Positions 35,332 to 59,605 of a DNA stretch of 64,000 nt are shown in pieces. The notes under the pieces were generated by a model that did not search any database, had not been told where the DNA came from, and saw only the letters and a program-made list of their open reading frames with translations. The first letter of the stretch is position 1, and each line of letters begins with the position of its first letter. The DNA comes from Cognatitamlana onchidii (GTDB lineage Bacteria > Bacteroidota > Bacteroidia > Flavobacteriales > Flavobacteriaceae), in contig NZ_SRWZ01000001.1 of assembly GCF_004804355.1 (NCBI RefSeq), positions 372,001-436,000 of the forward strand, given 5' to 3'. A program made the position numbers and the translations under genes.

Positions 35332-36660
35332 TTAACGCATATTTTGCATCATTTGCATCATCTTTTTGCCACCACCACCTTGCATCATTTTCATCATTTT
35401 ACTCATTTGATTAAACTGCTTTAAAAGCTGATTAACTTCTTGAACAGAGGTTCCAGAACCTTTTGCGACACGCTTTTTTCTACTAGCGTTAAGAACTGAT
35501 GGGTTGGCTCGTTCTTTAGGAGTCATAGAGTGTATGATGGCTTCAATACCTTTAAATGCATCGTCATCAATATCAACATCCTTCAGCATCTTACCTGCAC
35601 CAGGAATCATGCCCATGAGGTCTTTCATATTCCCCATCTTTTTGATCTGTTGAATCTGCTTTAAGAAATCGTCAAAACCAAATTGATTTTTCGCTATTTT
35701 TTTCTGAAGCTTTCTAGCCTCTTGTTCATCGAACTGTTCTTGCGCACGCTCCACTAAAGACACCACATCCCCCATACCAAGAATACGATCTGCCATACGA
35801 GATGGATAGAACACATCGATAGCTTCCATTTTTTCGCCAGTACCAATAAACTTGATGGGCTTATTAACAACAGATTTAATTGAAATTGCGGCACCACCAC
35901 GTGTATCACCATCTAATTTTGTAAGGATAACACCATCAAAATTCAAAACATCGTTAAAGGCTTTTGCCGTATTAACGGCATCCTGACCAGTCATGGAGTC
36001 AACTACAAATAATGTTTCCTGTGGTTGAATAGCCTTATGAATATTTGATATCTCTGTCATCATAGCCTCATCAACAGCTAAGCGACCTGCGGTATCTATA
36101 ATAACAACATTATGTCCATTTGCTTTTGCATGTGCTATGGCTGCCTGAGAAATAGCAACTGGGTCGTTATTTCCTTTATCACTAAAAACCTCAACGCCTA
36201 TTTGGTCTCCAACCACATGTAATTGATCGATAGCTGCCGGGCGATACACATCGCAAGCAACCAACAGAGGCTTCTTTGTTTTCTTATTTTTTAAGTAATT
36301 GGCAAGTTTACCAGAAAACGTTGTTTTACCAGATCCTTGTAAACCCGACATTAAAATAACACTTGGTGTTCCTGAAAGATTTATCCCTTCAGCATCGCCT
36401 CCCATTAATTGCGTTAATTCATCTTTAACAATCTTAACCATTAATTGCCCCGGCTGAAGTGTTGTTAGTACATTCTGACCAAGTGCCTTTTCTTTAACAG
36501 TTTGAGTAAATTGTTTTGCGATTTTAAAATTAACGTCGGCATCTAATAGAGCACGTCTAACTTCTTTTAAAGTTTCAGCTACATTTACTTCGGTAATACT
36601 ACCATGTCCTTTTAGAACGTGTAATGCCTTATCTAATTTATCACTTAAATTATTAAACAT
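35332..36660 (-). CDS. ffh: Signal recognition particle protein Ffh
   Basis: 442 residues. N domain helices, then the G domain with 'GLQGSGKTTFSGKLA' (G1), 'DTAGR' (G3) and 'TKLDGD' (G4), then the methionine-rich M domain ('QIQQIKKMGNMKDLMGMIPG', 'MMKMMQGGGGKKMMQMMQ') that binds 4.5S RNA and signal peptides. It targets membrane proteins co-translationally to SecYEG. The 4.5S RNA gene (ffs) was not found in this window. Confidence 0.98.
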   Translation of the reverse strand: MFNNLSDKLDKALHVLKGHGSITEVNVAETLKEVRRALLDADVNFKIAKQFTQTVKEKALGQNVLTTLQPGQLMVKIVKDELTQLMGGDAEGINLSGTPSVILMSGLQGSGKTTFSGKLANYLKNKKTKKPLLVACDVYRPAAIDQLHVVGDQIGVEVFSDKGNNDPVAISQAAIAHAKANGHNVVIIDTAGRLAVDEAMMTEISNIHKAIQPQETLFVVDSMTGQDAVNTAKAFNDVLNFDGVILTKLDGDTRGGAAISIKSVVNKPIKFIGTGEKMEAIDVFYPSRMADRILGMGDVVSLVERAQEQFDEQEARKLQKKIAKNQFGFDDFLKQIQQIKKMGNMKDLMGMIPGAGKMLKDVDIDDDAFKGIEAIIHSMTPKERANPSVLNASRKKRVAKGSGTSVQEVNQLLKQFNQMSKMMKMMQGGGGKKMMQMMQNMR

Positions 36661-36846: not shown

Positions 36847-38592
36847 TTATTTCGCCTTTGTAAGGACTAAAATCCGCTCTATTATTCCGTTAGAATTAAT
36901 ATCTTTTAACTCAACTTTATTAGGTGTAATCTCTTTAATTATCCATCTATGACGCAATTCGCTAAACGGTTCGTTTTGAGTTCTAAAGTTTAACCCTAAA
37001 TAAAGACCTTCATTCCTATAAGAAACCCAAGACCCTAAATAATTATTACCTTCACCTTCTGCAAATACTTTTCCGTTGTGGTTAAACCCAATTACATATC
37101 CGTTGTAATTCTCTGTTTCATCCATATCTTGGTCTATGTATGAAGTAACAATCCATGCTCCATTTACAAGAACTCTTGTAATGTAATCAACATCCTCATC
37201 TGGACACATTCTCTTTAAAACCATTTGATTATTTTCATTCGATAATTTAATTAATCCAGGTTCAAGGAAATTTATTACCCAAGCCAATCTTAAATCTGGT
37301 CTGCCCTCTAAATTAATTTTTAAAATTGCTCCAACAGGGCTTAAGCCTATCTCATAAGTTCCTTCTACTAGCTCTCCATTTACTCTTAGTTTAACAACAT
37401 CGTTTTCATAAAACTTAAAGGGTGTGCCAATATATTCCTTTTCATTATCTACACCATTAATATTTAGCCTTGTTATACGCCATAAGCACTCTTGTAAGTA
37501 ATTTTTAATTCGCTCTTTAGTGATATCAATTACAACATCACAATTCTTCTTCATAATAATACGGTTTCCTCCTACTTCGAATAGTTTGATTTTTCCGTAT
37601 TCAATATCATGAACAATCCACTCTAATGTAAAATCAGCTAAAGTTTCAAATTTCATTTTTAGAAGCGCTCCTCTGTCTGTTACACGTGTATTCCATGTTC
37701 CTGTTAAGACATCACCTCCTCTTGCTCGCATAGTTACAACGCCTTCTTTCATAAAGTTTAAGGCATACTCCTTATATTCTGGCGTATTGTCTTGATTACT
37801 TCTCATAAACTCATGAACAACCCAAGGGCAAATTTTCAAATAATTATCCAGTCGCTCTTTGGTAAAATCGTCGTCACCGTAATCATTATCGTCATCTTCA
37901 TCACAAGCATCTTTAGCAGCTTCAATAGTGCGTTCTAATTGAATGTTATTGTCTACCTCAACAGTAGTTTCGTCTGCATAAACTAGAGTTACAGGAAAAT
38001 TTAAACTAGCAAAAACTTCTCTAGCTCTTACTCTTCTAATAAAGCGGTGCAACTGCCTATCACTTTCTATACTAATTACATTTACAACTTGAAAATCGGC
38101 ATTGTATACAGAAAACGAAATAGGATATTGAAAATCTATACACTCTATGTCGTCATCTTCTTCATTTTCTCCTTTACATTCTGCTGCCAACTCCTCCAAA
38201 GCCAGACGGTTTTCAAGGACCACCTCAGAGTGATCTGCTAATATTACGGTAATCGGAAAAATAATATCTAAGGTATCCTCATCATCATCAAATTCTTTAA
38301 AAATAGCTTCAATCAGAGCAAAGTCTTCCTCAGAATCGATTATAACTTCAAGGCCTTTAACAACAACGGTTACAGGCAATTCTACAGATAAACAACTGGC
38401 TCGATCAATAATATTATCGTTAGACCCATCCATTATTGAGGCAGAACTCATAAGGGAAGTCAAGGTAGATTCGGCAACAAGGGCTTCACTTTCTTGCGGT
38501 TCGGTAACTTCGATCACCTCGTCCTGACAAGACGTAAAGAATAACAGGGCAATAAAAGGCAATAACATTAAGATTCTTAGTTTAGTCTTCAT
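36847..38592 (-). CDS. Acidic repeat-built lipoprotein next to the sigma/anti-sigma locus
   Basis: 581 residues from the ATG at 38592, which puts the lipoprotein signal ('KLRILMLLPFIALLFFTSC') at the N-terminus; the longer frame adds eight residues. After the acylated Cys comes an acidic linker, then two ~80-residue repeats, each with paired 'PVTVvvkG' / 'FPITVilAD' strands and ending at Cys. Three ~110-residue lipocalin-like repeats follow ('FTKERLDNYLKICPWVV', 'ITKERIKNYLQECLWRI', 'DYITRVLVNGAWIVTSY'). Very acidic spacers ('EDDDNDYGDDD') separate them. The gene diverges from the ECF sigma gene with only ~115 bp between, so it may be a target or co-regulated surface protein. No known function. 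Confidence 0.8.
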   Translation of the reverse strand: MKTKLRILMLLPFIALLFFTSCQDEVIEVTEPQESEALVAESTLTSLMSSASIMDGSNDNIIDRASCLSVELPVTVVVKGLEVIIDSEEDFALIEAIFKEFDDDEDTLDIIFPITVILADHSEVVLENRLALEELAAECKGENEEDDDIECIDFQYPISFSVYNADFQVVNVISIESDRQLHRFIRRVRAREVFASLNFPVTLVYADETTVEVDNNIQLERTIEAAKDACDEDDDNDYGDDDFTKERLDNYLKICPWVVHEFMRSNQDNTPEYKEYALNFMKEGVVTMRARGGDVLTGTWNTRVTDRGALLKMKFETLADFTLEWIVHDIEYGKIKLFEVGGNRIIMKKNCDVVIDITKERIKNYLQECLWRITRLNINGVDNEKEYIGTPFKFYENDVVKLRVNGELVEGTYEIGLSPVGAILKINLEGRPDLRLAWVINFLEPGLIKLSNENNQMVLKRMCPDEDVDYITRVLVNGAWIVTSYIDQDMDETENYNGYVIGFNHNGKVFAEGEGNNYLGSWVSYRNEGLYLGLNFRTQNEPFSELRHRWIIKEITPNKVELKDINSNGIIERILVLTKAK

Positions 38593-38706
38593 AGTACTTA
38601 ATTTTGGGTTAAACATAGCTTTTATTAATGAAACAGTTTAACTTTAAAATTTCCTACCCTCTTATTTCATTTTTTTTATTTTAGTGCAGTTAACTACTAT
38701 ACCATA

Positions 38707-39222
38707 ATGCAGAAACAGCTCCATGATAACATTTGCGAGGAACATATATTTTCCTCCATATTTAATAAGCATGCCAAAGATTTGTATAACTTTTTGCACT
38801 ATAAATTTGGCGATTTACTGAATCCAAAAGATAAGGTACAAGAAGCTTTTATAAAACTATGGGAAAACTGCTCTAAAATTCCCCCGAATAAGGCTAAGAG
38901 TTTTGTCTTTACAACTGCTAACAATTTAATGCTAAACGAAGTCGCACATCAAAAAGTAGTTTTAAAACATCAACAAACTAAACAAAAGACTGCTACAAAC
39001 GAAAGCCCTGAGTTTTTAATGCAAGAGTCAGAATACCGTGATAAGCTTCAAAAAGCACTCGAAAATTTAACTGAAGCACAACGTGTAGCTTTTATGATGA
39101 ACAGGGTTGAAGGCAAACGTTTTAAAGAAATAGCCGAATTATTAAATATATCAACTAAAGCTGTTGAAAAACGCATTTATGGAGCCTTAGAAAAACTTAG
39201 AAAAGATATCAAGGAGCTTTAA
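38707..39222 (+). CDS. ECF RNA polymerase sigma factor
   Basis: 171 residues. Sigma region 2 ('IFNKHAKDLYNFLHYKFGD', 'KVQEAFIKLWEN') and region 4 with the helix-turn-helix 'FKEIAELLNISTKAVEKRIYGALEKL'. It is of the Bacteroidota FecI-like ECF type. It begins a cassette with a FecR-type anti-sigma factor and an STN-type TonB receptor, the arrangement of cell-surface signalling systems. Nothing in the sequence reveals the inducer. The promoter is not clear; TATTTTAG just upstream is a weak -7 match. Confidence 0.94.
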   Translation: MQKQLHDNICEEHIFSSIFNKHAKDLYNFLHYKFGDLLNPKDKVQEAFIKLWENCSKIPPNKAKSFVFTTANNLMLNEVAHQKVVLKHQQTKQKTATNESPEFLMQESEYRDKLQKALENLTEAQRVAFMMNRVEGKRFKEIAELLNISTKAVEKRIYGALEKLRKDIKEL

Positions 39223-39301
39223 CCAACAACAATTGAAATTATTTTTAATCTTGAGGTAGGAAAAAATAAAAGTTAACTGTTATATAATTGAATAACGAAT
39301 C

Positions 39302-40201
39302 ATGAAGAGAGAAGAACTCATATCGAAATGGTTGGATAACAACTTAACAAATCAAGAGCTGGAAGCTTTTAAAAAGCTTGAAGACTATAATGATTTAGTT
39401 AGGTTAAACAACAACATGAAAGCTTTTAAAGCAGATAGCTATGATACGCCTAAGGAATTAGAGCATGTTTTAGTTCGTATTAAGCACAAGAACCAGACCC
39501 GCAAAAATTGGATTAAACCATTTTTGCGAGTGGCTGCTTTAATAGCCATATGCTTTGGCTTGTATTATTATACTACCAAAATAGACACCAGTGTTTCAAC
39601 CGAATTTGCTCAAAAAACAACTGTTAAATTACCAGATGCATCAAATGTGTCTTTAAATTCAAAATCTGTTATATCATTTAATGAGAACCAATGGAAACAA
39701 GATAGAATTGTAAAACTTGAAGGAGAAGCCTTCTTTAAAGTTGCTAAGGGTTCATCATTTAAAGTAAAGACACCAGCAGGTACCGTTACAGTTTACGGAA
39801 CCGAGTTTAATGTGAAGCAAAGAGAAAACTACTTTGAAGTTATTTGCTACGAAGGGCTAGTTGGGGTTAGCTACAAAAATCAGGAAACAAAATTAAAACC
39901 TGGAGATGGTTTTTTAATTCTTGATGGGAAACAAATTGCAAAGGAAAAAGAAAACCGCAGCATGCCTTCGTGGTTAAATAACTCAAGTGTATTTAAAAGT
40001 TTACCATTTAAAACGGTTATTGCTGAATTTGAAAGGCAATATAACGTTGAAGTAACTTTAATTGGCATAGATTCTAACCAATTGTTTTCTGGTAGTTTTG
40101 CTCATGATAATATTGAATTGGCGCTAAAATCTATTTCCCTACCATTACATGCTACTTATAGTAAAACCAATCGTACTATTATCTTAAAGCGTGAAGATTA
40201 A
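39302..40201 (+). CDS. FecR-type anti-sigma factor
   Basis: 299 residues. The short cytoplasmic N-terminus binds sigma ('LISKWLDNNLTNQELEAF'); one membrane helix lies at ~80-95 ('FLRVAALIAICFGLYYY'). The periplasmic FecR domain follows ('FAQKTTVKLPDASNVSLNS', 'VKLEGEAFFKVAKG', 'VTVYGTEFNVKQR'), then a DUF4974 domain that would meet the STN domain of the receptor. It holds the sigma factor at the membrane until the receptor signals. Its last 11 bp overlap the start of the receptor gene, so the two are translationally coupled. Confidence 0.95.
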   Translation: MKREELISKWLDNNLTNQELEAFKKLEDYNDLVRLNNNMKAFKADSYDTPKELEHVLVRIKHKNQTRKNWIKPFLRVAALIAICFGLYYYTTKIDTSVSTEFAQKTTVKLPDASNVSLNSKSVISFNENQWKQDRIVKLEGEAFFKVAKGSSFKVKTPAGTVTVYGTEFNVKQRENYFEVICYEGLVGVSYKNQETKLKPGDGFLILDGKQIAKEKENRSMPSWLNNSSVFKSLPFKTVIAEFERQYNVEVTLIGIDSNQLFSGSFAHDNIELALKSISLPLHATYSKTNRTIILKRED

Positions 40202-42506
40202 GGAGATATTTTACTTGATTTTATCTCTTTTTTTACTTAATGTTTCCTTTTTAAAAGCACAAGGCATTAGTAAAGAAAAGCAATCACTTGTTTCAATTTT
40301 AAAGACGGTTGAAGAACGATATAATGTTAGTTTTTCTTTTGCTGACCAAACCATTAAAAATAAATTCTGCACCCCAGTGAGTGAGGATTTTTCTCTTCCA
40401 GAAGCTATAGAATTTCTTGAAACTCAAACAAACTTAGAGTACGAAATATTAAACAATAGCTTTATAATAGTTAGGGCTCCAAAAAAAAAGAAAACCTCAT
40501 TTTCAATACAAAATCTAGAAGAAGTTGTTATTACAAATTATTTAACAACTGGCATTACAAAACTGAACAACGGTTCAATAAAAATAAAGCCACAAACACT
40601 CGGAATTTTACCTGGCCTTATAGAACCAGATGTTTTACAAACTATTCAAGCAATTCCAGGTGTTTTGAGTGCTGATGAAACGGTTTCAAACATCAATGTT
40701 CGAGGAGGCACACACGACCAAAACCTAATACTCTGGGATGGCATAAAGATGTATCAATCAGGACATTTCTTTGGCTTAATATCTGCCTTTAACCCTTATA
40801 CAACCAATGAGGTAAATGTATACAAAAACGGTACCCCTTCAAGATTTGGTGATGGCGTTTCTAGTGTTATTGACATGTACCTACCAAACGAATTAGATAA
40901 CCAGTTTAATGCAGGGCTAGGCTTTAATTTAATTAATATTGATGGGCATGCTAAAGTACCGCTTTCAAAAAAAACAGAATTACAAATTTCTGCACGCCGC
41001 TCAATTACAGACCTGATAAACACCGTTACATTTAAACAATACTCGAAACGCATTTTTCAAGATTCAGATTTAACATCATCAAGAAGCAACAATTCTATAT
41101 CCCAAAACGAAAACTTCTATTTCTATGATATCTCGGCCAAGTTTCTATATGACATTACGAAAAATGATAAAATAAGAATTCATTTCTTCAATGTAGATAA
41201 CAATTTAGATTATGATGAACTATCTACAGTTAACAATCAAGAAGAAGCTTTAAATAGTAAATTATCGCAACGAAGCACTGCTGGAGGAATAACATATCTT
41301 AGAAATTGGAACAGAAAACTAACGAGCTCATTTCAAATGTATATTTCCAATTATGACTTAGATGCTACCAATTTTAACATTAATAACAATCAACGATTAA
41401 TTCAGGAAAATGAAGTTTATGATGGTTCTGCAAAACTAGACTTTAACTATACATTTAATCATCAAATGACAATAAGCGGCGGATATCAATTCTCTGAAAT
41501 TGGTATAAGTAATTTGGCCGATATTAATAATCCGCCTTTTAGAAGTTATATAAAAGAGGTTATTATAAGTCATGCAGGGTATGCAGAAGTTCACTTCTTA
41601 TCCAATAACGCCAAATCGAAGTTAAATTTTGGTACCAGATTAAACGTTTTTCCAAAATTTAGCAAAACCCTTATCGAGCCAAGACTCGGTTTTAGTCAAC
41701 GTTTTTTGAATAATTTTAGGTTTGAAGTTTTAGGTGAATACAAAAATCAAACAACATCACAGATTATAGATCGACAAAATGATTTTCTGGGCATAGAAAA
41801 ACGCAGGTGGGTTTTAGCAAACAATAGTGATATTCCTATAATTAAAAGTAAACAACTAGCAACAGGCATTCATTTTAATAAAAATAATTGGCTTTTGAGT
41901 GCAGAAGGGTACATTAAAAAAGTTGATGGTATTACCACAAGAAGTCAAGGGTTTCAAAACCAATATCAATTTGTAAACCATGTGGGAAGCTATAATATTA
42001 AAGGCATTGACATTCTTATAAACAAACAGTTTAGCAGTATATTTCACAGCTGGTTATCCTATTCTTACAGTGTTAACAATTACATATTTGACGCTTTAAA
42101 CAATAGTAATTCATTTCCCAACAATGTGGATATAAGACATATTCTTACGGCAGCAGGCACTTATACCTATAACCAGTTTAAACTGGCTGCTGGCTTGAAC
42201 TATCATACAGGAAAACCAACTACAACAATAAACGAAAACAATAATTCCTCAAATAATTCCATACTGTTTAATACCCCCAATGGTGAACGCCTTCCCGATT
42301 ACCTGAGGGTTGACTGTTCTGCCACATATAAGTTTAATATATCTAATAAAACGCATGCTATTGTAGGGGCATCTATTTGGAATTTACTCAATAAAAGAAA
42401 TGTATTAAATAGTTATTACACATTAGATCGTGAAAACAACGTAAACAAGGTTGAAAATGAGTCACTTGGCCTCACTCCAAATGTAAGTTTTAGAGTACAA
42501 TTTTAG
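40191..42506 (+). CDS. STN-domain TonB-dependent receptor (signal transducer)
   Basis: 771 residues with a GTG start inside the end of the fecR gene. Signal peptide (1-23, 'SFLKAQ'), then an STN/secretin-like domain (~25-95, 'SILKTVEERYNVSFSFAD'). A TonB plug follows directly ('EEVVITNY', 'VLQTIQAIPGVLSADETVSNINVRGG') and then a barrel ending 'LTPNVSFRVQF'. The carboxypeptidase-regulatory-like domain that usually sits between STN and plug in Bacteroidota receptors is absent. The STN domain is the part that talks to FecR. No SusD partner follows, so polysaccharide uptake is less likely than uptake of a small ligand or sensing alone. Confidence 0.93.
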   Translation: MKIKEIFYLILSLFLLNVSFLKAQGISKEKQSLVSILKTVEERYNVSFSFADQTIKNKFCTPVSEDFSLPEAIEFLETQTNLEYEILNNSFIIVRAPKKKKTSFSIQNLEEVVITNYLTTGITKLNNGSIKIKPQTLGILPGLIEPDVLQTIQAIPGVLSADETVSNINVRGGTHDQNLILWDGIKMYQSGHFFGLISAFNPYTTNEVNVYKNGTPSRFGDGVSSVIDMYLPNELDNQFNAGLGFNLINIDGHAKVPLSKKTELQISARRSITDLINTVTFKQYSKRIFQDSDLTSSRSNNSISQNENFYFYDISAKFLYDITKNDKIRIHFFNVDNNLDYDELSTVNNQEEALNSKLSQRSTAGGITYLRNWNRKLTSSFQMYISNYDLDATNFNINNNQRLIQENEVYDGSAKLDFNYTFNHQMTISGGYQFSEIGISNLADINNPPFRSYIKEVIISHAGYAEVHFLSNNAKSKLNFGTRLNVFPKFSKTLIEPRLGFSQRFLNNFRFEVLGEYKNQTTSQIIDRQNDFLGIEKRRWVLANNSDIPIIKSKQLATGIHFNKNNWLLSAEGYIKKVDGITTRSQGFQNQYQFVNHVGSYNIKGIDILINKQFSSIFHSWLSYSYSVNNYIFDALNNSNSFPNNVDIRHILTAAGTYTYNQFKLAAGLNYHTGKPTTTINENNNSSNNSILFNTPNGERLPDYLRVDCSATYKFNISNKTHAIVGASIWNLLNKRNVLNSYYTLDRENNVNKVENESLGLTPNVSFRVQF

Positions 42507-42610
42507 ATTAAATGTCGTTTTTCATCGTTCATTAACTTGCGATTAGTGAAAAACATGCAAATACAAGCACTCCACCTGTTCTTTTTTATATTTTACTCAA
42601 AAATTACAAT

Positions 42611-44254
42611 ATGGCGTCCCTTAATCCACTTGGTTCAGACTTAGATTTGCGAAAAGCTAAGCATCTACTCAGGCGTGCTAGTTTTCAATTTACAAAAGAA
42701 CAGCTAAATACTTTTGTGGGGATGTCTGCTACCGATGCCGTTAACAGCTTAACAACAGCAGCTCCTAACACCTTATTAGCACCATACGACCCATTACCCA
42801 TTGAATCTCCTGACGGGTTTTGGACGTCTTCACCTGAACTACCAAACTCATTTGAAGGTCAGAATAGAAAACGCGCTCACGTAACTGCTTGGTGGTGGCA
42901 TAACGCTATGCAGCAAACCAGTTTAAAACATAAATTGTCTTTCTTTTTACACACCAGTTTTGTGGTTGGAAAGGATACTGGCGTTGGAGCAGCCACCTAT
43001 TTTTTCGACCATATTAACTTGTTGGACTTTTATGCTTTTGGGAACCTTAAAACTTTAGCGAAAAAGATCACTTTTGATAATGGTATGCTTGATTATTTAG
43101 ATAATACTCAAAACAATAAAAATAACCCGAATGAAAATTATGCACGAGAATATTTAGAATTGTTTACCATTTTAAAAGGAGAACAAATTGGACCAGATAA
43201 TTATACTAATTATACTGAAATAGATATTCAACAAGCAGCAAAAGTATTCTCTGGCATTAAAAAAAGACCTGAGAGAACTGATATTGATCCAGACACCAAT
43301 ATCCCCATGGGGTACATTAATATTGATCAACATAATACAGATGACAAAACATTTAGCAGTGCTTTTGGAAATCAAGTAATTTCAGGAAAAAGTACAGAGC
43401 TTGAAATATTTGAAGAATTGGATGCTTTTGTTGAAATGGTTTTTGCTCAACCAGAAACAGCCAAGGCCTATTGCAGAAAACTATACAGATATTTTGTAAA
43501 GAGTCAATGGAATGAAGAGGTTGAAACAGATATTATTACGCCGCTTGCCGATATACTCATAGCAAATAATTATGAGATATTACCAGTTGTAACCACACTA
43601 CTTTCTAGCGAACACTTTTATGATGCCGACGACAGTAATGCAACCGACAACATAATTGGAAGCATTATTAAAAGCCCTCTACAATTACTTTCGGAAGTTT
43701 GTTCCATGTTTGAAATTGAATATCCCGATCCAAGTACAGAAGCCTTACTCTATTACAGAGATTTTTTCCTTTATTTTCTCCACAACAGATATTTCCCAGC
43801 TTCAGGAATGGGCTTATTTAACCCAGATGAAGTTGCCGGCTACCCAGCATATTATCAGTTACCAGGGTACGACAGAAACTGGTTTTCATCAAACACCATC
43901 ATTGGACGTTACAAATTAATAGAAAGTTTGATTGAAGGGAAAAATACCATAATTGGAGGAAGAAATATTTACGCCCAGTTAGACTCGGCTAAATTTGTAA
44001 AGAATAAGATTACTGATGCGTCCGATCCCAATTTACTCATTACTCAAATAGCGGATCTATTATACCCAGAAAGTATTGACACAGACAGAACAAATTACTT
44101 TAAAAGTTTTTTAATTGATGAAGGGTTTCCTGACTATTATTGGACCAAGGCTTGGGAAAAATATATAAACACAAATGACGACTCCACAGTAAGAACACGT
44201 TTAAATGCTTTGATTATTGCTATGGTTAATGCCGCTGAATTCCAATTAATGTAG
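42611..44254 (+). CDS. DUF1800 family protein
   Basis: 547 residues. 'RKAKHLLRRASFQFTKEQL' is the DUF1800 start, and 'KLSFFLHTSFVV', 'NENYAREYLELFTI' and 'AKAYCRKLYRYFV' are family signatures. DUF1800 proteins have no proven activity and are nearly always paired with DUF1501 proteins, as here 29 bp downstream. No signal peptide is visible. The frame extends 25 codons upstream to a stop without an ATG or GTG start, so a missed leader is unlikely. Export, if any, may need the partner. Confidence 0.9.
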   Translation: MASLNPLGSDLDLRKAKHLLRRASFQFTKEQLNTFVGMSATDAVNSLTTAAPNTLLAPYDPLPIESPDGFWTSSPELPNSFEGQNRKRAHVTAWWWHNAMQQTSLKHKLSFFLHTSFVVGKDTGVGAATYFFDHINLLDFYAFGNLKTLAKKITFDNGMLDYLDNTQNNKNNPNENYAREYLELFTILKGEQIGPDNYTNYTEIDIQQAAKVFSGIKKRPERTDIDPDTNIPMGYINIDQHNTDDKTFSSAFGNQVISGKSTELEIFEELDAFVEMVFAQPETAKAYCRKLYRYFVKSQWNEEVETDIITPLADILIANNYEILPVVTTLLSSEHFYDADDSNATDNIIGSIIKSPLQLLSEVCSMFEIEYPDPSTEALLYYRDFFLYFLHNRYFPASGMGLFNPDEVAGYPAYYQLPGYDRNWFSSNTIIGRYKLIESLIEGKNTIIGGRNIYAQLDSAKFVKNKITDASDPNLLITQIADLLYPESIDTDRTNYFKSFLIDEGFPDYYWTKAWEKYINTNDDSTVRTRLNALIIAMVNAAEFQLM

Positions 44255-44283
44255 GGTTTTAAATTCCTATTAAAATTAAACTC

Positions 44284-45912
44284 ATGAAAAGAAGAGATTT
44301 TATAAAATTATCATCCGCAGCCTCGGCAATTGCCTTAACCCCTTTTGAATTGCAAGCGGCAATAAAATCATTCATGCCATATGCTAATTGCCCTGATATT
44401 TCAAATAGAAAGTTAGTACTTATTAATCTAGCTGGAGCTAACGATGGACTAAATACCATTGTTCCTTTAAACCAGTACGACATTTATAGTAATTTAAGAC
44501 CCACTATTAAGGTACCAATAACGGGGGTCAACAAATACATAAGCTTAGATAGAACTTTACCAGATAACCAACAAATAGGGCTAAACCCTGCTCTTACTGG
44601 GCTTAAATCAATATACGATAAAGGTTGGCTAAGAATCATGCAGTCGGTAGGTTATCCGTCGCAAAATAAAAGTCATTTTAAATCAACTGACTTATACTTA
44701 ACAGGGAACGACGGAAACAGTCTTTTAAATGGATCAGACACAGGATGGTTAGGTCGATTTATGGAATTATACTATGCAGATTTGATTGTTGAAAATTACC
44801 CTCTTGCTGTAGAAATTGGTTCAAACAAAACATCATTAGGGTTTCATGCTGAAGAAGCGCATGGGCTATCATTAAACATTTCTGGGCAGGATCCTGCCGG
44901 TTTCTATTCTGTTTTGAGCGGACTAGGAGGTGTTCCTCCGCTGAACATTCCAGATTCTGATTATGGCAAACAATTGGAGTATTTAACCAATACAGATGCC
45001 TTGTCTAACACCTATGCAGAATCTATTTCCAAAGCTTTCAATTCTGGAAAAAATGACACAAGTTATCCTGATTCGGATTTAGCTAATCAGCTTAAAACTG
45101 TGGCACGCTTGATAAGTGGTGATTTAGGCTCAAAAATATATATGGTTAGAATTTCTGGTTTTGACACACACAATGCCCAGGTTCAGGGTCCAGGGGAAGC
45201 CATAGGAAAGCACCATAGTTTACTTACAGATCTTGCTGAAAGTATGGAGGCATTTATAGATGACATGAATAGCCAGAACTTATCTGATAATGTGGTTGGA
45301 CTTACCTTTTCAGAATTTGGTAGAAAAGCGGCCGAAAATGGCAATTTAGGTACAGATCATGGTGAAATAGCTCCTATGTTTGTTTTTGGAAAACCAGTTG
45401 AAGGTGGGGTTTCTGGCACAAACCCAGATTTAACAGAGGCCACAAGTTCGAACAACTTTCAAATACAAACAGTTCAATATGACTACAGGCAAACATTTAC
45501 TACCTTGCTGCAAAACTATCTTGGTGCCGATGATAGTATTATTGATGCCACGTTTTTTAACCATACTGTAAACGACAGTTTTGTTAATTTAAAAATAGAC
45601 GATTTATTAAAATCTGAGTTTGATATATCTAAAGGTTGTGTTGCAAGCACAAAAAACCCATTAGAAGCACATAAAAACTGGTTAGTATATCCTAATCCTT
45701 TTCAGGATATTGTTAATATTACTGGTATTGCAGCTGTTGAAACCCTCTCATTTAGAGTTTATAATGCTTCAGGGCTTTTATTATTAAACAAAACCGAAGC
45801 CCTAGTTGATGGCAAAGTAACCTTAAATCTATATAACTTTAGTAGCGGTGTTTATTTTTTTGAAATGCTTTCAGGGAGCCATAAAGAAATTCATAAAGTT
45901 GTTAAGATATAG
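44284..45912 (+). CDS. DUF1501 family protein with Tat leader and T9SS sorting domain
   Basis: 542 residues. The N-terminus 'MKRRDFIKLSSAASAIAL' is a twin-arginine leader (R-R-x-F-I-K). The body is DUF1501, an alkaline-phosphatase-like fold of unproven activity: 'LVLINLAGANDGLNTIVPL', 'FDTHNAQVQ', 'GLTFSEFGRKAAEN', 'GTDHGEIAPMFVFG'. The last ~75 residues are a type A T9SS sorting domain ('WLVYPNPFQDIVNI', 'SSGVYFFEML'). It would cross the inner membrane folded through Tat and the outer membrane through T9SS. It is co-transcribed with the DUF1800 gene and probably forms a pair with it. Confidence 0.92.
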   Translation: MKRRDFIKLSSAASAIALTPFELQAAIKSFMPYANCPDISNRKLVLINLAGANDGLNTIVPLNQYDIYSNLRPTIKVPITGVNKYISLDRTLPDNQQIGLNPALTGLKSIYDKGWLRIMQSVGYPSQNKSHFKSTDLYLTGNDGNSLLNGSDTGWLGRFMELYYADLIVENYPLAVEIGSNKTSLGFHAEEAHGLSLNISGQDPAGFYSVLSGLGGVPPLNIPDSDYGKQLEYLTNTDALSNTYAESISKAFNSGKNDTSYPDSDLANQLKTVARLISGDLGSKIYMVRISGFDTHNAQVQGPGEAIGKHHSLLTDLAESMEAFIDDMNSQNLSDNVVGLTFSEFGRKAAENGNLGTDHGEIAPMFVFGKPVEGGVSGTNPDLTEATSSNNFQIQTVQYDYRQTFTTLLQNYLGADDSIIDATFFNHTVNDSFVNLKIDDLLKSEFDISKGCVASTKNPLEAHKNWLVYPNPFQDIVNITGIAAVETLSFRVYNASGLLLLNKTEALVDGKVTLNLYNFSSGVYFFEMLSGSHKEIHKVVKI

Positions 45913-45966
45913 TTTTATGATCTCTTACCAAAACTTTCAAGTTTATTCACAATCGAAATAAAGTTT

Positions 45967-46731
45967 ATGAAGGCAACACAAACAATTTGGACGCTACTTA
46001 TTAGTGCTATTATAGCATCTTCATGTCATTATGATATAGACGATATAACCGAAAACACCGGTTTAATAGATCCTGTTAGCCATGAGAATATTGAAAACAG
46101 ATGGTGGATATTGACTCACAAAAACTACGAAGCGCCAGGGATTTATCTTTATAATGAAACTACCCAAAGCATAGAATTACAGTTAGATCTCCCAGAAAAC
46201 CTTGAATCTCCGCATGCTTTAGCTTATGATGGCGAATATTTATGGGTTGGCGGAGCAGGTGACAACGAATCCATCTATCAACTTGATGCGGAAAATGGTA
46301 GCATAATTTCTGAAATAAAGAATATTACCACAGAAGGCATTACTGCGCAGGATGAATTTCTCTACTATTCAAACGATAAAATAATCCATAAGATAAATAA
46401 GGACGGAACCTTTATTGAAGAAATACCAACCAAAAACTCATCATATAATATTCCAGACATAGCCATTGATGGCAACCATTTATATTACTTACGCTATTCT
46501 GAACAAGATCCTGTTATAAAAATAGGTCTATCAGACAAAAGAGAAAGCAAAATAGCTTTAACAGAAAGCACGGGTACCTATTGCTTGACAATTTATAATA
46601 ACGAAATAATCACCGTAAATGCTTTTAATGAAATAAATCGTTTTAATCTAGAAACTGGTGTGTTTATCTCAACCCAACCTACACTAATTAAAGGATGGAT
46701 AACAGCAATTGAGCCTTACTATACATATTAA
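45967..46731 (+). CDS. Beta-propeller-like lipoprotein
   Basis: 254 residues. Lipoprotein signal ending in 'IIASSC' (acylated Cys near 20). The mature part holds four to five WD/NHL-like blades ('PHALAYDGEYLWVGG', 'EGITAQDEFLYYSN', 'PDIAIDGNHLYYLR', 'YCLTIYNNEIITVN'), suggesting a small propeller used for binding. It is last in the sigma/receptor/DUF1800/DUF1501 run, 54 bp after the DUF1501 gene. I do not recognise a named family. Confidence 0.75.
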   Translation: MKATQTIWTLLISAIIASSCHYDIDDITENTGLIDPVSHENIENRWWILTHKNYEAPGIYLYNETTQSIELQLDLPENLESPHALAYDGEYLWVGGAGDNESIYQLDAENGSIISEIKNITTEGITAQDEFLYYSNDKIIHKINKDGTFIEEIPTKNSSYNIPDIAIDGNHLYYLRYSEQDPVIKIGLSDKRESKIALTESTGTYCLTIYNNEIITVNAFNEINRFNLETGVFISTQPTLIKGWITAIEPYYTY

Positions 46732-46858: not shown

Positions 46859-48637
46859 TTACATTCGTTCGGGAACTTGGATGCCAAGCAAGTTAAATGC
46901 ACTCTTAATGGTATTGGCTACAATTTTCGATAACTTTACGCGAAACGCTTTTTCAATACCTGTATCTGCCCCCAAGATAGATACATTCTGGTAAAATGAA
47001 TTAAACTCCTTTACCAAATCATAGGTGTAATTGGCAATTAATGCAGGGCTATGATTTTCTGCAGCATTTTGCACTACTTCTGGAAAAAGTTGCAATTGCT
47101 TTAATAGTGCTTTCTCTTTTTGATGTAACTCCAACTCACTAAAACCATCAAATTCACTAATATCCGCTTTTCTTAAAATAGATTGAATCCTGGCGTAGGT
47201 ATATTGAATAAACGGCCCTGTATTTCCTTGGAAATCAATAGACTCTTTAGGATCAAAAAGAATACGCTTTTTAGGATCCACTTTTAAGATATAATACTTT
47301 AAAGCCCCTAAGCCAATAGTTTTATAGAGTTCCTTTTTTTCAGCTTCAGAATAGCCATCAAGCTTTCCTAACTCCTCAGAGATTTCTTCAGCGGTACTTG
47401 CCATATCTTCTATTAAATCATCGGCATCAACAACAGTTCCCTCGCGACTCTTCATTTTACCACTTGGCAAATCTACCATACCATAGCTTAAATGATACAA
47501 ATTTTTAGCCCATTCGAAACCTAGCTTTTTCAGAATCAAAAACAGCACCTGAAAATGATAATCCTGCTCATTCCCAACAGTATATACCATCCCACCTACA
47601 TCTGGATAATCTTTTATTCGTTGGATAGCAGTTCCTATATCTTGAGTCATATAAACTGCGGTTCCATCAGCCCTTTGAACAATCTTTTTATCTAGACCTT
47701 CTTCGGTTAAATCGCACCAAACAGATCCATCATCTTCTTTGTGAAAAACTCCTGTTTTTAAACCCTCTGCAACAAACGCCTTACCCAACAAGTAGGTTTT
47801 ACTTTCATAATACAAAGCATCAAAATCAACTCCTAAATTAGCGTATGTTTCATTAAAACCCTGGTACACCCAATTGTTCATTTTCGTCCAAAGCTCGACA
47901 ACTCCTTTATCTCCAGACTCCCATTTACGAAGCATATCCTGAGCTTCAAGTAATAAAGGCGCATTCTTCTTTGCCTCTTCTTCGCTGCTTCCTTCAGAAA
48001 CAAGGACTTCAATCTGTTTTTTGTATTCTTGATCAAATTTAACATAATAGTTCCCTACCAGTTTATCTCCTTTTAAACCAGTACTTTCGGGAGTTTCTTC
48101 ATTCCCAAACTTTTCCCAAGCCAACATACTTTTACATATATGTATACCCCTATCATTAATAATTTGGGTTTTATACACCTTTTTACCTGAAGCTTTCAAT
48201 ATTTCAGAAACGCTATATCCTAAAAGGTTATTCCTAATATGTCCTAGGTGCAATGGTTTATTTGTATTTGGAGAAGAATATTCAACCATTATAGCTTTAT
48301 TATTTGGGTCTGGCTCTAATATCCCATAAGTAGCACTGTCCTTAATAGCATTAAAAAATTCCAAATAATATACATCACTTATTTCAACGTTTAAAAATCC
48401 TTTAACGACATTAAAGGCTTTTACCTCATCTACGTTTTGCACCAAATAGTCTCCAATAGTTTCTCCAATTTGAACAGGGTTTCCTTTTATAAAACGTAGC
48501 ATTGGGAAAATGACAATAGTAATATCACCATTAAACTCTTTCCTTGTTGCCTGAAATTCTATGGTCTCAATATTAACATTAAATCCTATTTTTACGGCGT
48601 GTTTTAAGTGGTTAGATAGAGTATCCTGGAGGGTCAT
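46859..48637 (-). CDS. argS: Arginyl-tRNA synthetase
   Basis: 592 residues. Class I synthetase charging tRNA-Arg. N-terminal Add-1 domain, then the HIGH motif as 'HLGH' (residues 130-133, in 'NTNKPLHLGHIRNN'), a KMSKS-loop equivalent 'GKMKSREGTVV' and a C-terminal DALR anticodon domain ending 'LLGIQVPERM'. Monocistronic, with a -7 element TATCTTTG just upstream. It converges on the propeller lipoprotein; the 127 bp between them shows no strong hairpin. Confidence 0.97.
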   Translation of the reverse strand: MTLQDTLSNHLKHAVKIGFNVNIETIEFQATRKEFNGDITIVIFPMLRFIKGNPVQIGETIGDYLVQNVDEVKAFNVVKGFLNVEISDVYYLEFFNAIKDSATYGILEPDPNNKAIMVEYSSPNTNKPLHLGHIRNNLLGYSVSEILKASGKKVYKTQIINDRGIHICKSMLAWEKFGNEETPESTGLKGDKLVGNYYVKFDQEYKKQIEVLVSEGSSEEEAKKNAPLLLEAQDMLRKWESGDKGVVELWTKMNNWVYQGFNETYANLGVDFDALYYESKTYLLGKAFVAEGLKTGVFHKEDDGSVWCDLTEEGLDKKIVQRADGTAVYMTQDIGTAIQRIKDYPDVGGMVYTVGNEQDYHFQVLFLILKKLGFEWAKNLYHLSYGMVDLPSGKMKSREGTVVDADDLIEDMASTAEEISEELGKLDGYSEAEKKELYKTIGLGALKYYILKVDPKKRILFDPKESIDFQGNTGPFIQYTYARIQSILRKADISEFDGFSELELHQKEKALLKQLQLFPEVVQNAAENHSPALIANYTYDLVKEFNSFYQNVSILGADTGIEKAFRVKLSKIVANTIKSAFNLLGIQVPERM

Positions 48638-59501: not shown

Positions 59502-59605
59502 TTTAAAATTTGTTTTGAGAGTGATTATGAATTAAGGTCTTAATCTTATCCTTCGATAATCATGAATCTCTCGTTAATACTTGTTAATAAAAATTTTTCA
59601 GTTTG

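Follow-up and report, generated by a model that had tools for sequence, protein, structure and literature searches.

The window analysed here is a 64,000-nucleotide (nt) stretch of Cognatitamlana onchidii contig NZ_SRWZ01000001.1. Six open reading frames (ORFs) on its plus strand, at positions 38707-46731, encode a cell-surface-signalling cassette, a DUF1800-DUF1501 pair and a lipoprotein, and are separated by 79, -11, 104, 29 and 54 nt. The first three are an extracytoplasmic function (ECF) sigma factor (38707-39222; Pfam sigma-70 regions 2 and 4, with TIGR02985 at 109.5 bits, below its cut-off of 126.4), a FecR anti-sigma factor (39302-40201; Pfam FecR and FecR_C) and a TonB-dependent transducer with a GTG start (40191-42506; Pfam FecR_C and Plug). 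The N-terminal domain of this receptor is FecR_C/STN-like; it passes Pfam as FecR_C (33.8 bits) and scores 22.8 bits for STN, below the cut-off of 28.4. By Pfam, the three genes bring together an ECF sigma factor, a FecR and a receptor with an N-terminal signalling domain, the gene set of cell-surface-signalling systems. Downstream lie the DUF1800 gene (42611-44254), the DUF1501 gene (44284-45912) and a propeller lipoprotein gene (45967-46731; DUF5050 at 28.2 bits against a cut-off of 27, plus a partial beta-propeller match). This order of families, on one strand and with short gaps, was given by the initial annotation and is confirmed by the ORF coordinates and family matches.

A second lipoprotein gene (36847-38616, minus strand; 589 amino acids (aa)) diverges from the sigma factor gene, here and in the related signalling loci. 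It has no Pfam family above cut-off and no solved relative by sequence (best E 0.21). Both lipoproteins were so labelled by eye from a lipobox-like N-terminus. In NCBIfam the receptor, DUF1800 and both lipoproteins had no match at E<=0.01, and in PADLOC the DUF1800/DUF1501 pair and both lipoproteins matched no defence family. The flanking minus-strand genes at 35332-36660 and 46859-48637 are presumably ffh and argS, respectively, names given from their sequences and not from a family search. The interval between them looks like two modules: an S-module (divergent lipoprotein, ECF sigma factor, FecR and STN receptor) and a D-module (DUF1800, DUF1501 and sometimes the propeller lipoprotein, an accessory gene found in part of the D-module loci).

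Searches with DUF1800 and the receptor covered 397 genomes of Flavobacteriaceae, and 60 stretches were read by ORFs and BLASTP. DUF1800 matched in 126 genomes at E<=1e-30 and the receptor in 283, where up to two candidates for each genome were scored. A receptor was called S-type if its listed match was full-length and included the N-terminal domain. Such receptors occur in at least 106 of the 397 genomes, a lower bound because they were counted from the listed matches, and a close DUF1800 (about 64% identity or more) occurs in 23, the window's genome included. On these counts, 14 genomes have both. No S-type receptor is listed for 9/23 genomes with a close DUF1800, and 92/106 S-type genomes lack a close DUF1800. 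Between ffh and argS, relatives carry joined modules (e.g. L055, L056, L060), a D-module alone (e.g. L063, L065-L067, L069) or an S-module alone (e.g. L073, L076). Genome G017 splits the two between contigs, with the S-module next to ffh in L070 and the D-module, propeller gene included, next to argS in L036. Since relatives often carry one module without the other, S and D appear to be two separate devices. Separation of the two halves in relatives is what the initial annotation itself had named as speaking against its single inducible system, and it is observed here.

A DUF1800 tree, built quickly from 37 rows of which 11 came from 80 named loci, gave a similar picture. The label joined or D-only switches nine times, at least five of them across strongly supported branches. 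The label is still clustered, as values this low were found in only 8 and 19 of 500 shuffles. The sister row of the window is D-only (G268; support 91, not starred) and the nearest row by path is joined (L109). Among the 80 named loci with a related DUF1800, some of whose stretches are cut by contig ends, sigma factor, FecR and receptor lie within the stretch in 10. DUF1800 matches were also seen among plasmids. In joined loci L055 (7643-9283; G191) and L056 (6628-8284; G419), DUF1800 is broken by a stop or frameshift next to an intact DUF1501, reflecting either decay or assembly error. In G268 a 186-aa argS-like fragment (L061, 7410-7970) immediately precedes the D-module, which is itself followed by the full argS; the fragment is possibly a scar of S-module loss or D-module arrival. 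The receptor-DUF1800 gap is 92-118 nt in 10/12 joined relatives, and the other two (L053 and L057) have an extra gene there. A gene of 716-721 aa adjoins the D-module in three relatives (L053, 7816-9981; L057, 8910-11060; L068, 10509-12659). It is a Na+/H+ exchanger in L053, and the copies in L057 and L068 are alike by start and length only.

A shared motif, GTAGGA-N16-TGTTnTAT, stands upstream of both fecR and the divergent lipoprotein gene, each copy oriented with its gene. The copy before fecR (39256-39286, plus strand) matches the 31-nt pattern exactly, and the copy before the lipoprotein gene (38627-38657, minus strand) has 2 mismatches. At both divergent targets the two boxes have a promoter-like layout with fixed spacing. 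In S-module loci of relatives, a 30-nt pattern with at most one mismatch was found before fecR in 28/28 and before the divergent lipoprotein gene in 25/27. With the same tolerance it preceded the sigma factor gene in 0/28, the receptor gene in 1/28 and DUF1800 in 0/12 joined relatives. Shuffled fecR upstream regions match at 0.05%. With starts called mechanically, the fecR copy lies at -43 to -47 in 17/28 loci, at -36 in one and at -32 in ten. A scan of the window with up to 3 mismatches found 8 sites against 6.5 expected, which is not above chance, so the case for a promoter depends on the exact fecR site and on the relatives. The placement of the motif suggests that the sigma factor targets fecR, the receptor and surface proteins, probably including the divergent lipoprotein, and that its control over the DUF1800/DUF1501 pair is probably read-through at most. 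Because the gap is 104 nt and no terminator on this strand was listed in it by a simple scan, transcripts of the receptor operon could run on into DUF1800. Over 23 sequences, joined and D-only DUF1800 relatives share a different upstream element, which scores 333 by expectation maximization where six shuffles score 224-238. Part of this signal may reflect kinship, and the element is weak in several D-only loci and in the window itself. We propose GTAGGA-N16-TGTTnTAT as a new candidate promoter sequence for this sigma factor.

The 30-nt form of the motif occurs in 150/397 genomes, comprising 101/106 with a listed S-type receptor and 49/291 without. None of the nine close-DUF1800 genomes without a listed S-type receptor has a site. 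Of 25 further sites, 14 were read: every site with 30-nt spacing (13) and a single 29-nt site. The remaining 11 measure 29 or 31 nt. Among the sites read, eight fall 16-82 nt upstream of genes for lipoprotein-like or secreted proteins, four of which have type IX secretion system (T9SS) tails. Three lie within ORFs, and three have no gene start inside 380 nt. The window's genome has two further sites, one inside an ORF and one 31 nt before the gene for LP2, a lipoprotein-like protein of 288 aa whose relative in G156 (56% identity) likewise has the motif. The motif stands 16 and 36 nt before the genes of two similar secreted proteins (L098, 2843-4027, in G036; L102, 4083-5297, in G419), each about 400 aa long and bearing a T9SS tail, which are likely a shared target of the sigma factor. 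No S-type receptor is listed for G142 and G336, members of a single genus that carry 9 and 6 sites; a different sigma factor with a larger regulon may use the same promoter there.

The DUF1501 protein (PF07394, 65.1 bits against a cut-off of 27) carries putative targeting signals at both ends. Its N-terminus, MKRRDFIKL, holds a twin-arginine motif in which R3, R4 and F6 are invariant among 50 close-type sequences, and TatC of the twin-arginine translocation (Tat) pathway is present. Its C-terminus is a T9SS type A sorting domain (PF18962, 44.7 against 27 bits; TIGR04183, 38.5 against 23). Residues D54, H131, D294, H296, D358 and H359 are invariant in the same 50 sequences. The AlphaFold model has a mean confidence (pLDDT) of 73.7, with the first 32 residues unreliable and the nucleophile region of low confidence. 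Foldseek gave 107 matches at E<=0.001; the top ones belong to the alkaline-phosphatase superfamily, including arylsulfatases, LtaS, YejM and MCR-1, but their TM-scores are low. By VIA the model aligned with a phosphodiesterase at Z 17.8 (root-mean-square deviation 3.8, 255 residues aligned) and with PafA at 16.5. DUF1501 thus models as an alkaline-phosphatase-superfamily fold and is probably a hydrolase.

The DUF1800 protein (PF08811, 231 bits against a cut-off of 26.1) is the single match of its family in this genome. Its model is nearly all-alpha and well defined (pLDDT 92.1, pTM 0.91). It has no solved relative by sequence. The best structural hits of the model in the PDB, at E 0.78 by Foldseek and at Z 4.1 by VIA (a phycobilisome-core chain), are not counted as matches, which is no proof that the fold is new. 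No export signal was detected in this protein or in any of 99 close-type DUF1800 sequences. DUF1501 adjoins 96 of the 99, 95 with RR and one with KR/RK, and is absent from the stretch in three. In these 96, a leaderless protein is encoded beside a Tat-motif partner, the arrangement found in Tat hitchhikers. Among 77 other DUF1800 sequences from Bacteroidota, 46 have no signal, 20 have RRx[FLM] without a hydrophobic core, four have RR with some core (1.37-1.86, against a DUF1501 median of 1.65) and seven are Sec-like; DUF1501 adjoins 71 of them (68 RR, three KR/RK). By the same naive rule, RRx[FLM] falls within the first 14 residues in 20/183 DUF1800 sequences and in 8/1052 control ORFs. Individual calls may be wrong because start codons were picked mechanically. 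An apparent split, in which signal-bearing DUF1800 lacked DUF1501 (7/7) and signal-less DUF1800 had it (40/42; seven loci unclassified), was withdrawn. It was an artefact of 1.5-kb flanks and a narrow regular expression, since longer stretches show a twin-arginine DUF1501 after signal-bearing DUF1800.

Most likely DUF1501 takes DUF1800 out of the cytoplasm as its passenger, and this model fits the export-signal counts. The fuller form of this idea is more tentative, and we hold it to be somewhat unlikely as it stands. In it, folded, leaderless DUF1800 would ride the Tat substrate DUF1501, the pair would then reach the surface by T9SS as a two-protein cargo across both membranes, and the RR motifs without a core on other Bacteroidota DUF1800 would be a fossil of an older, independent Tat signal. 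Tat redox enzymes have maturation proteins that proofread them before export. By analogy, DUF1800 might remain cytoplasmic and proofread DUF1501 ahead of Tat export, acting as its dedicated chaperone or metal-loading factor. The lack of an export signal in all 99 close-type sequences and the DUF1501 neighbour of 96 of them suit this role too. The Sec-like signals (7/77) and N-terminal RRx[FLM] motifs (24/77, four with some core) on other Bacteroidota DUF1800 speak against it, as they suggest a workplace outside, and we regard a cytoplasmic role as possible but doubtful.

We wondered whether the sigma factor nevertheless commands the D-module. In the reading of the initial annotation, it would control an exported set of DUF1800, DUF1501 and propeller proteins that captures or processes the ligand of the receptor. 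The shared strand and the 104-nt gap without a listed terminator agree with this, as do the gap length kept in joined relatives and the co-occurrence of S and D above expectation (14/23 against 92/374; Fisher p 4e-4, uncorrected for kinship and based on listed S-type receptors). The modules are nevertheless separable, and the motif is missing before DUF1800 in 12/12 joined relatives and from every close-DUF1800 genome without a listed S-type receptor. Gain or loss is repeated on the DUF1800 tree, most S-type genomes do without a close DUF1800, and the two halves are on different contigs in G017. One system is therefore improbable, and the supported ties between the sigma factor and the DUF pair go no further than their being neighbours, co-occurring to some extent and perhaps sharing read-through transcripts. 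The surface-signalling part of the initial annotation is supported by sequence: the cassette is of the TonB-dependent type, and fecR-receptor and the divergent lipoprotein gene are probably under the control of its sigma factor. Still less probable is a reading in which GTAGGA-N16-TGTTnTAT serves a different regulator or different ECF sigma factors. The 49 matching genomes without a listed S-type receptor, G142 and G336 among them, would fit such a site. The promoter-like arrangement of the two boxes, whose spacing is fixed at both divergent targets, argues against it, and presence of the motif follows the S-type receptor. TGTT near -10 is also reported for ECF-linked promoters of B. thetaiotaomicron in PMC12596196, where the motif for one such sigma factor was not significant.

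Taken as a whole, the reading that we prefer, a separate TonB-dependent signalling unit and a DUF1800-DUF1501 export pair within the ffh-argS interval, has about an even chance of being correct. Several observations weigh against it. Co-occurrence above expectation together with the conserved 92-118 nt gap means that coupling via read-through may be selected. The link between motif and receptor is partly circular because two of the sites belong to the S-module itself, and the relatives are not independent. Pfam TAT_signal scores 14.6 bits on the window's DUF1501, below the cut-off of 22.7. The export-signal calls on DUF1800 come from simple hydrophobicity and motif rules, and a looser rule flagged a few close-type N-termini as hydrophobic (L112, L124, L173).

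Under this two-module explanation, ligand binding at the receptor would be relayed by its N-terminal domain to FecR, freeing the ECF sigma factor as in the FecI/FecR/FecA paradigm. The freed sigma factor would drive GTAGGA-N16-TGTTnTAT promoters of fecR-receptor, the divergent lipoprotein gene and a few other surface-protein genes. DUF1501, judged by its motifs and predicted fold, would pass the inner membrane via Tat and arrive at the surface via T9SS, and leaderless DUF1800 would most likely bind it and cross as a passenger. The D-module would not be a dedicated target of the sigma factor, although it may be reached by read-through. The explanation corrects a tempting operon reading, as the DUF pair is not demonstrated as the output of the sensor. 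It also provides a concrete candidate promoter and a handful of proposed targets for a sigma factor of flavobacterial surface signalling. For a pair without an assigned function it offers a clear hypothesis, namely that an alkaline-phosphatase-like protein bound for Tat and T9SS carries a leaderless partner, and as such the pair is the more interesting part of the locus. Elsewhere in the window, an S4-Flavobacteria ribosomal-protein leader (Rfam RF03141, 51.5 bits) lies at 59523-59561 on the minus strand.

A literature search, with most subscription journals outside its reach, found no link of the DUF1800/DUF1501 pair to an ECF sigma factor and no DUF1800 co-export. Within its scope, DUF1800 is named in four papers and both domains in two. 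Shared operons of DUF1800 and DUF1501 were predicted, and the twin-arginine motif on DUF1501 described, in PMC5122149. The pairs in that paper resemble the present one in gene adjacency and in this motif. They differ in that the loci read here have no chitin synthase, DUF1501 has a T9SS tail and DUF1800 has no export signal. This analysis adds the sigma motif, the T9SS tail, the lack of a signal on DUF1800 and the putative twin-arginine relics. DUF1501 resembles the alkaline-phosphatase superfamily (nucleotide pyrophosphatase/phosphodiesterases (NPP) and PafA) in predicted fold and conserved D/H residues, with about 9-13% identity. Tat hitchhiker complexes such as PaoABC (PMC4273604) likewise have a leaderless protein encoded beside a Tat-motif partner; the present pair is a candidate for such co-export, and its Tat partner also has a T9SS tail. 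The S-module is most like FecI/FecR/FecA signalling: its consecutive genes encode an ECF sigma factor, FecR and a receptor that has a plug and, at its N-terminus, an STN/FecR_C-like domain. It differs from that system in that fecR has its own candidate promoter, between the sigma factor gene and fecR, and in that the candidate promoter sequence is shared with the divergent lipoprotein gene and other surface-protein genes.

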